This document shows, piece by piece, positions 3,371 to 11,424 of a DNA stretch of 33,635 nucleotides. How positions within the stretch are numbered: position 1 is the stretch's first letter; each line of letters opens with the position of its first letter. The stretch covers positions 1-33,635 of the forward strand of contig NZ_JARIBH010000035.1 of NCBI RefSeq assembly GCF_029264495.1, in the 5' to 3' direction. Source of the DNA: Peptacetobacter sp. (GTDB lineage: Bacteria > Bacillota > Clostridia > Peptostreptococcales > Peptostreptococcaceae). The notes beneath the pieces are model-generated. The model saw only the letters and a list, made by a program, of their open reading frames with translations. It was not told the origin of the DNA and did no database searches. The translations under genes and the position numbers were made by a program.

Positions 3371-3652
3371 GTATAGAAAACAAAATCTTTAAAAGCTATG
3401 ATGAAGACAGTAGGTTTAGAATATATTTTTACAGAGAACTGGAGTTGCTGAGAACCAGAGAATAATCTAAATTGAATATCACTTCGGAGTTGAATGCTGA
3501 AAGATTTATCTTATTTAAGATTTATCGAATAAGTTATTCCGGTAATGTGCCGTTATACAGAAGAGTGTCGTATAATTTTTATTTATACGGAATTAGGGTG
3601 GTAACGCGATTAGACTCGTCCCTTTGTTTTACAAAGGAGACGAGTTTTTTTA
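3371..3652 (+). promoter_or_regulatory. T-box riboswitch (isoleucine), leader of ileS
   Basis: T-box leaders bind a tRNA and let transcription continue only when that tRNA is uncharged. Stem I features are visible at about 3395-3500: the GATGAAGA turn, an AGAGA bulge with the GTTGCTGAGAA apical region, and a GAATATCA specifier loop with codon ATC (Ile) at 3478-3480. The T-box consensus AGGGTGGTAACGCG lies at 3595-3608. Its TGGT (3599-3602) can pair with a tRNA ending in ACCA, as expected for tRNA-Ile with A at the discriminator position. The terminator at 3614-3652 competes with the antiterminator. Specifier and downstream gene agree. Confidence 0.95.
3614..3652 (+). terminator. T-box regulated intrinsic terminator
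   Basis: ACTCGTC plus CCTTTG (3614-3626) pair with CAAAGG and GACGAGT (3632-3645) with one bulged A, followed by a T run to about 3652. The 5' arm lies just after the T-box sequence, so antiterminator and terminator are mutually exclusive. Confidence 0.9.
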
Positions 3653-3708: not shown

Positions 3709-6700
3709 ATGGCAAATTTTAAACCATTAGTAGATACTTCTGTAAAAGATGCAGAAGCAAATGTATTTGATTATTGGCAAGATATCAATATATTAGAAAG
3801 AACATTAGAAAAAGGTGAAAATGATCCTAGTTTTGTATTCTATGAAGGGCCTCCAACAGCAAATGGAAATCCAGGAATACACCATGTTGTTGCTAGAACT
3901 TTAAAAGACTGGGTATGTAGATATAAAACAATGTCTGGATTCCAGGTAAAAAGAAAAGCTGGTTGGGATACTCATGGACTTCCAGTAGAAATACAGGTAG
4001 AAAAAGAATTAGGCTTAGCAGATAAACAAGCTATAGAAGAATATGGAATAGAAAAATTCTGTGAAAAATGTAGAGATTCTGTATTTACATTTGAAAAACA
4101 ATGGAGAAATATGACAGAAAGAATGGCATATGAAGTAGACCTTGATAATCCATATATAACTCTAGATAATAATTATATAGAATCAGTTTGGTGGATTTTA
4201 AATAAATTTAATAAAGAAGGATATGTATATGAAGGACATAAAATACTTCCTTATTGCCCAAGATGTGGAACTGGATTAGCATCTCATGAAGTTGCTCAGG
4301 GATACAAAGAAGTAAAAACAAATACATTAGTGGCTAAATTTAAAAAATCTGGAACTGAAAATGAATATTTCCTAGCATGGACAACTACTCCATGGACATT
4401 ACCATCAAATGTATCTTTAACAGTAAATCCAGAAGTTACGTATATAAAAGTAAAACCTGCTGATGTGGATGAATATTACTATCTAGCAGAACCATTAGCA
4501 GAAAAAGTTTTAAAAGATAGAGAATATGAAGTAGTTGAAAAAATGCTTGGTAAAGATTTAGAGTATGTTGAATATGAACAGCTTATGGACTTTGTAAAAC
4601 CAGATAAAAAAGCATTCTTTATAACTTGTGCAGATTATGTAACAACTGAAGATGGTACAGGTATAGTACATACAGCTCCAGCATTTGGTGAAGATGACTA
4701 TAATTGTGGTAGAAGATATAATTTACCAGTTCTTCAACCTGTTGATGAAAGTGGAGAATTTACAGCAACTCCTTGGAAAGGTAAATTTGTAATGGAAGAA
4801 GGACTAGATGTTGAAATAATAAAATATCTAGCAAAAGAAAATAAATTATTCAGTAAAGAAAAAGTAGCACATAATTATCCACATTGTTGGAGATGTCAGA
4901 CACCACTTGTTTACTATGCAAAACCAAGTTGGTACATAGAAATGACAAAATTAAAGGATAAATTAATAGAAAATAATAATACTGTAAATTGGTATCCGGA
5001 ATTCGTAGGTCAAGGAAGATTTGGAAACTGGTTAGAAGAATTAAAAGACTGGGCTATATCAAGAAGTAGATATTGGGGAACTCCTTTACCAATTTGGAGA
5101 TGTGAATGTGGAAATACTGAATCAGTAGGATCTAGACAGGAACTTGCTGATAAAGCTATAGAAACAGTAGATCCAAAAACAGTAGAACTTCATAGACCAT
5201 ATGTTGATGAAATACATTTAAGATGCCCTGATTGTGGAAAACCAATGACTAGAGTAAAAGATGTTATAGACTGTTGGTTTGATTCAGGTTCAATGCCATT
5301 TGCTCAACATCATTATCCATTTGAAAATAAAGAAAACTTTGATCAGTTATTCCCAGCAGATTATATCTGTGAAGGTATAGATCAAACAAGAGGTTGGTTC
5401 TATTCATTATTAGCTATATCAACATTTGTAATGGGTAAAGCACCATATAAAAATGTTTTAGTTAATGACCTTGTTCTTGATAAAAACGGCAAAAAAATGT
5501 CTAAATCAAGAGGAAACACTGTAAATCCATTTGAATTATTTGATAAATATGGAGCAGATGCATTAAGATGGTATCTATTATACGTATCTCCACCATGGAC
5601 TCCAATAAGATTTGATGAAGATGGATTAAAAGAAATCCAATCTAAATTTATAGGAACAATAAAAAATGTTTATAATTTCTTTACACTATATGCGAATATG
5701 GACAATGTAAATCCAGGAGATTTCTTTGTTGAGTATAAAGATAGACCAGAATTAGATAGATGGATACTTTCTAAATTTAATAATTTAAAAGCTGAAATAG
5801 AAGAAAATCTAGAAATATTCGAAGTAAATAGAACTATAAGAAGAATACAAGAATTCTTAAATGATGATTTATCTAACTGGTACATAAGAAGATCTAGAAG
5901 AAGATTCTGGGAACCAGAATTAAATGAAGATAAAAAATCAGTTTACAATACAACTTATGAATTATTAACAGAATTATGTAGAGTAATAGCACCATTTGCT
6001 CCATACTTATCAGAAGAAATGTATAGAAACTTAACAGGAGAAGAATCTGTACATTTAGCATCTTATCCAAGATGTAATAAAGAACTTCTTGATGAAAAAC
6101 TTGAAGAAAAAATGGACTTAGTTAAAAACTTAGTAACTCTTGGTAGAGCATCAAGAGAAAATGCTAAAATAAAAGTTCGTCAACCATTAAAAGAAGTTTT
6201 AATAGATGGAAAATATAAAGAAGTTATATCTGATTTAGTAGATATAATAAAAGAAGAGTTAAATGTTAAAGAAGTAGTATTTGTTGAAGATTTAAGTGAA
6301 TATATGAACTACAGCTTAAAACCAAACTTTAGAGAAGTTGGTTCTGTGCTTGGTAAAAAAGTAAATACATTTGCAAAAACTCTAGCTGCATTAGATGCCC
6401 ATGATACTGTAACTAAATTAGAAAACGGAGAAAAAATAACAGTAGAACTAGATGGAGAAAACTTTGAATTTGGAAAAGATTATGTTTTAATAAATATATC
6501 TGCTAAAGAAGGATTCAATGTATCTATGCAGAACAATGTATTCGTTTTATTAGATACTGAATTAAATGAAGAATTAATAAATGAAGGATTTGCAAGAGAA
6601 TTTATATCAAAAGTACAGCAATTAAGAAAAGCTGCAGACTTTGAAGTTCTTGACAATATAGTAATAGATTATTGTTCAGATGAAGAAATAGCAAAAGCTG

Positions 6701-6828
6701 TTGCTGAGTTTGAAGAATATATAAAATCTGAAACTTTAGCATTAGAAATAAATAGAGTAGAAGATGAATCTATAGAAAAACATAACTTAAATGACCACAT
6801 GACAGGTATAAAAGTGACAAGAAAATAA
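3709..6828 (+). CDS. ileS: Isoleucyl-tRNA synthetase, type 2 (GXHH signature)
   Basis: Charges tRNA-Ile with isoleucine and edits misactivated valine. The 1039 residues exceed the usual 900-930 of type-1 bacterial enzymes and fit the eukaryote-like type-2 clade. Seen: the nucleotide-binding entry FYEGPPTANGNPGIHH with GIHH at 56-59 where class I enzymes usually have HIGH; GWDTHGLPVE; the CP1 editing-domain TTTPWTLPSN (225-234); Zn-ligand-like CPRCGTG and CRCEC/CPDCGKP pairs; KMSKS at 596-600; and an anticodon-binding helical domain (about 690-870) with a long C-terminal extension. Type-2 enzymes with swapped GXHH have been reported as strongly mupirocin resistant. The start has AAAGGGTG upstream, and expression is controlled by the T-box. 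Confidence 0.96.
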   Translation: MANFKPLVDTSVKDAEANVFDYWQDINILERTLEKGENDPSFVFYEGPPTANGNPGIHHVVARTLKDWVCRYKTMSGFQVKRKAGWDTHGLPVEIQVEKELGLADKQAIEEYGIEKFCEKCRDSVFTFEKQWRNMTERMAYEVDLDNPYITLDNNYIESVWWILNKFNKEGYVYEGHKILPYCPRCGTGLASHEVAQGYKEVKTNTLVAKFKKSGTENEYFLAWTTTPWTLPSNVSLTVNPEVTYIKVKPADVDEYYYLAEPLAEKVLKDREYEVVEKMLGKDLEYVEYEQLMDFVKPDKKAFFITCADYVTTEDGTGIVHTAPAFGEDDYNCGRRYNLPVLQPVDESGEFTATPWKGKFVMEEGLDVEIIKYLAKENKLFSKEKVAHNYPHCWRCQTPLVYYAKPSWYIEMTKLKDKLIENNNTVNWYPEFVGQGRFGNWLEELKDWAISRSRYWGTPLPIWRCECGNTESVGSRQELADKAIETVDPKTVELHRPYVDEIHLRCPDCGKPMTRVKDVIDCWFDSGSMPFAQHHYPFENKENFDQLFPADYICEGIDQTRGWFYSLLAISTFVMGKAPYKNVLVNDLVLDKNGKKMSKSRGNTVNPFELFDKYGADALRWYLLYVSPPWTPIRFDEDGLKEIQSKFIGTIKNVYNFFTLYANMDNVNPGDFFVEYKDRPELDRWILSKFNNLKAEIEENLEIFEVNRTIRRIQEFLNDDLSNWYIRRSRRRFWEPELNEDKKSVYNTTYELLTELCRVIAPFAPYLSEEMYRNLTGEESVHLASYPRCNKELLDEKLEEKMDLVKNLVTLGRASRENAKIKVRQPLKEVLIDGKYKEVISDLVDIIKEELNVKEVVFVEDLSEYMNYSLKPNFREVGSVLGKKVNTFAKTLAALDAHDTVTKLENGEKITVELDGENFEFGKDYVLINISAKEGFNVSMQNNVFVLLDTELNEELINEGFAREFISKVQQLRKAADFEVLDNIVIDYCSDEEIAKAVAEFEEYIKSETLALEINRVEDESIEKHNLNDHMTGIKVTRK

Positions 6829-9782: not shown

Positions 9783-9811
9783 TTGAATATATAAATTAAA
9801 TATTATATAAT
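9783..9811 (+). promoter_or_regulatory. Promoter of the leader ORF and CNNM gene
   Basis: TTGAAT (9783-9788) and TATAAT (9806-9811) are spaced by 17 bases. Transcription would begin near 9818, about 24 bases before the leader ORF and about 205 bases before the CNNM gene. Confidence 0.6.
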
Positions 9812-9841
9812 CGTCTAAAATACTATTTTAAGGAGAAAAAA

Positions 9842-9958
9842 ATGGATTCTGACGAGGAGAAGAGTAATAAAATATTTTTAGGGTTTGAATATAAGTACAA
9901 AAAAAATTATTATTACAAAATTTTACATTGGGATAACATAATCAAACTTGTGTGTTAA
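9842..9958 (+). CDS. Putative 38-residue leader peptide with acidic N-terminus
   Basis: Too short for a standard ORF call. An AAGGAG SD (9830-9835) stands six bases before an ATG. The peptide begins MDSDEEKSNK, continues with Lys/Tyr-rich and hydrophobic residues, and ends KLVC with stop TAA at 9956-9958. The first codons are unusual for this genome (GAC, GAG, GAG, AAG rather than GAT, GAA, AAA). Its last codons form the 5' arm of an 11-base-pair stem whose 3' arm reaches the SD of the CNNM gene. I know no family for it. It could be a regulatory leader peptide, a small protein, or a chance ORF in a structured leader. Confidence 0.5.
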   Translation: MDSDEEKSNKIFLGFEYKYKKNYYYKILHWDNIIKLVC

Positions 9959-10014
9959 TATATTAAATTTTTAAAATTATAAAATTTAAAATTATAAAAT
10001 AAATAACACATAAG
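9947..10014 (+). promoter_or_regulatory. Long-range stem overlapping the CNNM-gene SD
   Basis: CTTGTGTGTTA (9947-9957) can pair over 11 contiguous positions (one G-U) with TAACACATAAG (10004-10014); the loop is about 46 AT-only bases. The 3' arm covers the first three bases of the SD AAGGAGAG (10012-10019), and the 5' arm covers the last codons and stop of the leader ORF. A ribosome at the end of that ORF would open the stem. Confidence 0.5.
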
Positions 10015-10022
10015 GAGAGAAA

Positions 10023-11357
10023 ATGTATAAACAAATAATATTTCAGATTGTATTAATAGCATTAAATGCTTTTTTTGCTATGACAGAGGTAGCATTAATA
10101 TCAACAAATAAGATAAAATTAAAAAAATTATCAGATGAAGGAGATAAAATAGCCGGTAAACTTATGGAGATTTCTAAAGATCCATCTGAATTTTTATCTA
10201 CAATACAGATAGGTATAACTTTAGCAAACTTTCTTGCAAGTGCATTTGCTGCAGATGGATTATCAGGTTACCTAGCAGACTTTATATATAATACACTTAA
10301 TTTAAAAGTATTATCTTATGAAATGACAAATACAGCTTCATTGATAATAATAACTTTAATATTATCTTACTTCACACTTATATTGGGAGAGTTAGTTCCT
10401 AAAAGAATAGCTATGAATAAACCACTTGAAGTTGCAAAATTTGCCTGTATACCAGTATCAATAATATCTACAGTTGTTAGACCTGCTGTAAAATTTTTAT
10501 CTTTTTCAACTAATTTAGTTCTTAGACTATTAAAAATAGAGGATAAAGATGAAGAAAATAAAATTACTGAAGAAGAAATAAGAATGATGATAGACTTGGG
10601 AAATAGCGAGGGCGATATAAACTCATATGAAAAAGAGCTTATAGATAATGTGTTTGACTTTTCTGATTCAAGTATTAGAAATATCATGACACATAAAACA
10701 GATATAGTATCAATATTTGAAGATGATAGCATAGAAGATATAGAAGATAAAATTCATGAAACAGGTTATTCAAGGTATCCAGTATATGGAGAAAATGAAA
10801 ATGATATAAAAGGTGTTTTATATGCTAAAGATTTCTTTGCAAAATTACATGGGTATTCTGTAGATGAAAATAATATCTATAAAAATAAAATAAAAGATAA
10901 TGGAATAGTAGATATTATTAGAAAAGCGTATTTTATACCAGACTCAATAGATCCTGTAACCTTATTTAAAAATATGCAAAAAAGGAAAATTCATATTGCC
11001 ATTGTAATAAATGAATATGGAGAAAATATTGGTATAGTAACAATGGAAGATTTATTAGAAGAGATTGTCGGAAATATATATGATGAGTTTGATGAGTATG
11101 AAGACGATAATATAAAGATTTCTGATAAATCATGGAAAATAAAAGGAAATACAACATTAGTAGATTTGTCTGAAAAGATAGGTATAGAATTTCCAGATAA
11201 TTTACCTTATGATACAATATCAGGTGCTATTTTAAATAAGATACAGAGAATACCAAATAACGATGAAAAGTTTGAAGTCGATATTTTTGGAATGAAAGTA
11301 AAGGTTGAAAAAATAGAGTCTAGAAAAATTGAAGAAGTTATAATAACTATTAATTAG
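10023..11357 (+). CDS. CNNM/CorC-type membrane protein with CBS pair (HlyC/CorC family)
   Basis: A membrane protein of the family that includes Bacillus YhdP and Staphylococcus MpfA, linked to magnesium (mainly efflux) handling. Of its 444 residues, the N-terminal DUF21/CNNM domain (about 1-180) has about four hydrophobic segments, with FFAMTEVALIS near 17-27 and ELVPKRIAMNKP near 122-133. A cytoplasmic region follows with EEEIRMMIDLGNSEGDI and two CBS motifs (about 205-335, including RNIMTHKTDI and GIVTMEDLLEEIVG). A CorC_HlyC domain closes the protein (about 350-440). A strong AAGGAGAG SD precedes the ATG. A promoter, short ORF and SD-overlapping stem lie upstream, suggesting leader control. 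Confidence 0.92.
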   Translation: MYKQIIFQIVLIALNAFFAMTEVALISTNKIKLKKLSDEGDKIAGKLMEISKDPSEFLSTIQIGITLANFLASAFAADGLSGYLADFIYNTLNLKVLSYEMTNTASLIIITLILSYFTLILGELVPKRIAMNKPLEVAKFACIPVSIISTVVRPAVKFLSFSTNLVLRLLKIEDKDEENKITEEEIRMMIDLGNSEGDINSYEKELIDNVFDFSDSSIRNIMTHKTDIVSIFEDDSIEDIEDKIHETGYSRYPVYGENENDIKGVLYAKDFFAKLHGYSVDENNIYKNKIKDNGIVDIIRKAYFIPDSIDPVTLFKNMQKRKIHIAIVINEYGENIGIVTMEDLLEEIVGNIYDEFDEYEDDNIKISDKSWKIKGNTTLVDLSEKIGIEFPDNLPYDTISGAILNKIQRIPNNDEKFEVDIFGMKVKVEKIESRKIEEVIITIN

Positions 11358-11390: not shown

Positions 11391-11424
11391 AAAATAGGAG
11401 CTAATATTTAGCTCCTATTTTATT
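11391..11424. terminator. Bidirectional terminator, CNNM gene / Xaa-Pro peptidase
   Basis: AAAATAGGAGCTA (11391-11403) pairs perfectly with TAGCTCCTATTTT (11409-11421) around a 5-base loop. T-rich sequence flanks it on both strands, and the genes on either side converge. Confidence 0.85.

Follow-up and report, generated by a model that had tools for sequence, protein, structure and literature searches.

In the stretch of DNA analysed here (the window, 33,635 nucleotides from Peptacetobacter sp.), a gene of the CNNM/CorC family is preceded by a short ORF with an acidic start, and an inhibitory RNA hairpin overlaps the end of this ORF. At the sequence level, comparison between genomes shows the ORF, its acidic start and the overlapping hairpin, and shows that these are conserved and associated with CNNM genes. 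We consider it reasonably probable that the ORF belongs to a cis-acting leader that makes CNNM production depend on ribosomes passing an acidic or Asp-Pro start, the Mg2+ signal, the ribosome drop-off and the export being inferred. The broader proposal is a circuit common to the class Clostridia, in which, at low Mg2+, programmed ribosome drop-off at such a start would reduce a Mg2+ exporter of the CNNM type; we regard it as evenly poised between right and wrong. The circuit would exist in three interchangeable layouts, deduced from gene arrangement: CNNM itself may carry the start, or a leader may carry it, combined with either an intrinsic terminator or an SD-sequestering stem. The anatomy and the predicted sign of the device are well supported. 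Leader translation, drop-off as the sensor, Mg2+ as the signal and Mg2+ export by CNNM remain inferences, without expression, footprint or Mg2+ data.

The leader transcript of the window would start from a promoter at 9783-9811 (+ strand, as all features of this locus) with the hexamers TTGAAT and TATAAT. Bare matches to this type of pattern are at chance level (21 found versus 18.7 +/- 5.4 expected), and the promoter is accepted because it is conserved: the same -35 and -10 hexamers with the same 17-nt spacer occur at the window's locus (L001) and at those of two congeners (L003 and L004), ending 30, 31 and 34 nt upstream of the leader ATG, respectively. An SD sequence AAGGAG (9830-9835) precedes the leader ORF (9842-9958), whose 38 codons encode MDSDEEKSNKIFLGFEYKYKKNYYYKILHWDNIIKLVC, from MDSDEEKS to IKLVC-stop. 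This ORF has orthologues in both congeners, and ORFs of the same type stand at about 50 further CNNM loci. Its acidic codons D-S-D-E-E (9845-9859; DSDEE or DSDDEEE in the congeners) form the proposed ribosome-destabilising sensor, with the EPDP of MgtL as precedent (PMC11282234); the start of this leader is purely acidic and has no early Pro, in contrast to that of MgtL. The last codons of the ORF, encoding part of LVC-stop, contain the 5' arm of the SD-sequestering stem (9947-9957, CTTGTGTGTTA). The 3' arm (10004-10014, TAACACATAAG) overlaps the front of the CNNM SD AAGGAG (10012-10017), taking up its first bases. The stem comprises 10 Watson-Crick pairs and one G-U, and the duplex between the ORF end and the SD region reaches -14.0 kcal/mol versus -3.6 +/- 1.7 in 1000 shuffles, none of which was as good (P below 0.001); folding of the whole leader is moderately better than that of shuffles (z -1.87). 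The downstream gene (10023-11357) encodes a transporter of 444 aa with the CNNM, CBS and CorC_HlyC domains (Pfam PF01595, 5.8e-49; PF00571, 2.1e-17; PF03471, 2.9e-19) that define the CNNM/CorC (CorB) type; its solved relatives include 7m1u, 7m1t and 4hg0. It is followed by a bidirectional intrinsic terminator at 11391-11421. The promoter, the 38-codon ORF with its SD, the 11-bp stem and the CNNM/CorC assignment proposed in the preliminary description are thus all borne out.

In the corresponding position upstream of the orthologous CNNM genes, L003 carries MDNGDSDEENRS…IKLVC-stop (CNNM 74% identical) and L004 carries MDSDDEEESKRY…KRVL-stop (CNNM 57% identical). Both ends of the ORF, DSDEE and IKLVC-stop, are kept in L003, and the acidic start is kept in L004 as MDSDDEEE. 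Between L001 and L003 the two ends are conserved and the middle is not, the changes within DSDEE and IKLVC-stop being synonymous. The ORF end pairs with the CNNM SD region in all three species with stem sequences that differ between them; the duplex of L003 reaches -14.6 kcal/mol (P below 0.001, no shuffle as good), and that of L004, at -9.7 kcal/mol (P 0.046), is weakly better than chance. Absence of conservation in close relatives had been set beforehand as a refutation of the preliminary description, which survived it: ORF, promoter and SD-sequestering stem are present in all three, as are the acidic start codons. When a ribosome is modelled at the leader stop, the unpaired fraction of the CNNM SD rises from 0.39 to 0.93 in L001, from 0.40 to 0.87 in L003 and from 0.02 to 0.85 in L004. 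In these models, the leader of the window's genus meets the definition of a translational attenuator, namely a stem between leader codons and SD that is opened by a ribosome, with opening in vivo inferred. No intrinsic terminator was found between leader and CNNM in L001, L003 or L004, so that the leaders of this genus do not fit the pattern of a pyrBI-like attenuator, whose terminator overlaps or adjoins the leader stop codon. A separate observation concerns the leader acidic codons at 9851-9859 (GACGAGGAG; GATGAGGAG in L003), which resemble the CNNM SD region (10012-10017; GACGAGGAG in L003), so that the 5' arm of the stem could in principle pair with either.

To place these loci in a wider frame, CNNM relatives were sought in the family, the order and the class, and their upstream regions were then read. 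For named relatives, a protein scan of genome contigs with the window CNNM as lone query returned none, whereas an alignment query succeeded. A leader was defined by an ATG, an SD, a length of 15-60 codons and residues 2-7 containing three Asp/Glu, or two plus Pro, and no Lys/Arg; 30 sets of dinucleotide shuffles and 305 background genes from the same genomes served as controls. Such leaders were found at 36 of 184 distinct CNNM loci, compared with a mean of 1.0 (maximum 4) in the shuffles and with two of the 305 background genes. This definition misses the window's own ORF, whose residue 7 is Lys. Starts such as MDDNPED, MDDSPGG, MDDIPED, MDDYPAD, MDDEPGE, MEDESEE and MDDSDS are typical, and among the named holders are Eisenbergiella porci and MAGs assigned to Sellimonas, Ruthenibacterium, Anaerotruncus, Emergencia and Peptococcaceae. 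The strict DNA pattern ATG-GAY-GAY-NNN-CCN-GNN-GAY has seven matches in 21 genomes, all located 161-202 nt upstream of CNNM and none before any other gene. By these counts, early acidic or acidic/Pro residues of the MDSDEE and MDDxP types are far above shuffles and background. The leaders range from 11 to 47 aa with a freely variable middle. About 65 CNNM loci, roughly a third, have neither a leader nor an acidic start as defined here, and the closest relatives, in a 4-Mb genus of the same family, carry only distant CNNM paralogues. Judged by sequence alone, the leader device occurs in a large part of the class Clostridia, usually in the form of a putative transcription attenuator, far more widely than the preliminary description supposed.

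Its form as an attenuator follows from the ends of the leaders. With a slightly wider leader definition, 39 of 51 distinct leaders have an intrinsic terminator in the interval from the ORF end to the CNNM SD (4.6 expected from shuffles), a count that includes one or two probably false leaders formed by the ends of upstream genes (L020, L082). The 5' arm of the terminator begins inside the ORF in 28 of these 39, for the most part 10-11 nt upstream of the last base of the stop codon; in the others it begins 0-11 nt past the stop. The conserved C-terminal codons of the leaders (…AGA AGG CCT TGA and similar, encoding RRP or RA) coincide with this arm. An arrest peptide ending in RRP-stop or RA-stop is not claimed, the terminator arm explaining the conservation at least as well; a coding remnant of a larger gene and an amino-acid attenuator were likewise set aside, the leaders having no run of one codon and a variable middle. 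In E. coli, a ribosome represses almost fully a terminator lying a few bases from the stop codon, and this repression is lost without translation (PMC4824070). A ribosome finishing a leader should therefore let transcription through. Without a pause site, an attenuator based on coupling would be weakened if RNA polymerase outruns ribosomes, as has been reported for Bacillus subtilis; in Bacillota, transcription and translation may be only loosely coupled. At two loci (L007 and L008, from G035 and G036), both kinds of off-switch occur within one leader: the terminator is accompanied by an 11-bp pairing of leader codons (AAGTATTTGAA) with the sequence just upstream of the CNNM SD (TTCAAATACTT).

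In many relatives without a leader, the motif is found at the start of CNNM itself, for instance as MDPDPS, MPEPDPS, MSSDPS or MNNLDSDPG. DP occurs within residues 2-10 of 72 of 185 CNNMs, versus two of 305 background proteins. Leader and own start largely exclude each other: a leader is present at only one of 75 own-start loci, where it is spurious (the end of an upstream gene), versus 35 of 109 other loci (Fisher p 2e-8). This statistic overstates independence, since related loci share descent; for 181 short CNNM fragments placed on a tree, as few as five switches between leader and own start may suffice, and the independent pairs are not numerous enough for a test. Own starts in the window's family use GAC CCC GGG, with CCC as 14 of 23 Pro codons versus about 1% in the same genera and GGG as 13 of 17 Gly codons versus 10% in the background. 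Conservation of these rare codons points to selection on decoding or RNA, beyond the peptide, and slow decoding, proneness to frameshifting or an RNA element could lie behind it. The Peptostreptococcaceae-like loci L009-L028, from several genera, carry GAC CCC GGG at the DPG start of CNNM.

We propose that a ribosome completing the leader would cover the 5' arm of the inhibitory hairpin, allowing CNNM to be made, whereas loss of destabilised ribosomes at the acidic or Asp-Pro start would leave this arm free, so that the hairpin forms and CNNM is off. The hairpin would be the stem hiding the CNNM SD in the window's genus and an intrinsic terminator in most other clostridia. E. coli ribosomes drop off at the EPDP of MgtL at low Mg2+, in the leader of the Mg2+ transporter gene mgtA (PMC11282234, PMC11552253); similar drop-off would result in less Mg2+ exporter when Mg2+ is scarce. 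Since the 5' arm lies in the last ORF codons at nearly all loci, it is the arrival of the ribosome, not its drop-off, that is expected to open the hairpin. The sign put forward in the preliminary description, with finishing ribosomes opening the stem and drop-off leaving it closed, agrees with the SD-stem, terminator and own-start layouts alike, drop-off itself being inferred. On the strength of this common sign and of enterobacterial precedents, the leader is held to report ribosome stability and, in practice, Mg2+.

These precedents resemble the clostridial device in part. MgtL of E. coli and Salmonella is also a short leader with an acidic/Pro start that controls a Mg2+ transporter gene, but, like CorL, it is Rho-mediated and its translation turns an importer off, whereas completion of the clostridial leader is expected to switch on a gene of exporter type by way of an SD stem or, in relatives, of a terminator that is intrinsic; the phylum is a different one, and no sequence homology is claimed. 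In the pyrBI attenuator (pyrL), a ribosome near the end of the leader ORF similarly prevents terminator folding (PMC4824070, PMC5021804), but the signal is UTP-dependent polymerase pausing rather than early ribosome drop-off. The CNNM/CorC family is associated with Mg2+ (PMC8242095, PMC12421838), and the transport role of CNNM is still debated (PMC8242095). The N-terminus of E. coli CorC (YbeX) holds an intrinsic ribosome destabilisation sequence, and Salmonella CorC and MgpA are made more at high Mg2+, translation of the YoaL leader raising MgpA (PMC12421838). The likeness here lies in CorC-domain Mg2+ efflux genes with higher expression at high Mg2+; however, these are two single enterobacterial genes, as opposed to a Clostridia-wide start borne by CNNM or by a leader that has either a terminator or an SD stem. 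The parts of the device have known counterparts (Mg2+ sensors with an acidic start, terminators blocked by ribosomes and leaders that sequester an SD), and the literature yielded no account of leaders of this type upstream of CNNM genes in clostridia or in other organisms, subscription papers and preprints being outside the search. In enterobacteria, acidic-residue Mg2+ sensing has been described for importers (MgtL, MgtQ) in addition to the destabilising start of CorC. If the proposal is true, the same principle would operate on the export side across Clostridia, gut commensals included, through a compact unannotated leader family that offers a regulatory handle on CNNM. Drop-off at acidic starts at low Mg2+ in Gram-positives, and prevention of termination by coupled translation in clostridia, would then be directly testable.

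The sign could in principle be the reverse. In mgtQ of the Salmonella mgtCBRU operon, an acidic-codon uORF likewise controls an SD-sequestering stem of a Mg2+ transporter gene, and destabilisation at its acidic codons refolds the RNA and raises mgtB translation (PMC8092293); in L001 and L003 the acidic codons are similar to the CNNM SD and could pair with the same 5' arm. We find such refolding quite improbable here. MgtQ has 8 codons, lies between two genes and uses three alternative stems, whereas the leader ORF of the window counts 38 codons, has a single stem at its end and is predicted to act with the opposite sign; folding gave no alternative anti-terminator, the position of the 5' arm favours opening on arrival, and in the own-start layout drop-off can only lower CNNM. 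Still harder to credit is the idea that the leader encodes a small peptide with a function of its own, exerted in trans or on CNNM, and that its position is incidental. The conserved peptide ends would fit it, including the synonymous changes in IKLVC-stop between L001 and L003, but the variability of the middle and of the length does not, the conserved RRP/RA codons are accounted for by the terminator arm, and the leader has no Pfam match.

Dependence on ribosome passage also leaves room for the same cis device to respond to a signal other than Mg2+, either the general ribosome or energy state (an EttA-like ABC-F protein, EF-P or proline supply) or Mn2+. This has a modest chance of being right. 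EttA alleviates pausing at acidic residues that lie among the first 30 aa, including those of MgtL (PMC11282234), and many leaders and CNNM starts place Pro beside Asp, with the rare CCC codon in the window's family; yet the window's leader has no early Pro, and the device is attached to genes of a family with ties to Mg2+; in 21 genomes, the strict leader pattern precedes CNNM alone. For Mn2+, the evidence is a single sub-threshold match to the yybP-ykoY riboswitch upstream of the CNNM of L009 (1278-1370; 26.4 bits, cut-off 45), which was not recovered in a wider scan of 16 loci, and a Mn2+ riboswitch for the whole CNNM family was rejected. No Rfam covariance match at gathering score was found in the window's leader or in 40 CNNM loci, and the M-box is absent from the three genomes of the window's genus. 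The acidic/DP start of CNNM itself might instead be a feature of membrane topology unrelated to the leaders, as the N-terminus of CNNM lies ahead of the first membrane helix, and a location outside would be compatible with its acidic residues. We think this improbable: leader-bearing CNNMs lack such a start, the further CNNM paralogues in this family, at 33% identity, begin with MESLES, MGSTG or MLESPN, without DP, and the rare codons are conserved beyond the peptide. A Mg2+-responsive leader remains our preferred reading.

Some minor observations were made alongside. The weak yybP-ykoY match of L009 is followed by a terminator-like hairpin, and L011 and L018 look similar by eye. Elsewhere in the window, a T-box leader (3389-3626) precedes a class I tRNA synthetase gene of the Ile/Leu/Val/Met type (3709-6828), an ordinary arrangement. 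A second CNNM paralogue (L002, on contig 77 of the window's genome; L005, L006 and L307-L317) has a TTG start codon, and its start region is conserved in nucleotides (GGAGTGTGGTAA…TTGGAATCGCYC or TTGGATTCGACC), perhaps representing another translational control. At some of these loci, a hairpin-like GGTTG…CGACC surrounds the start codon.
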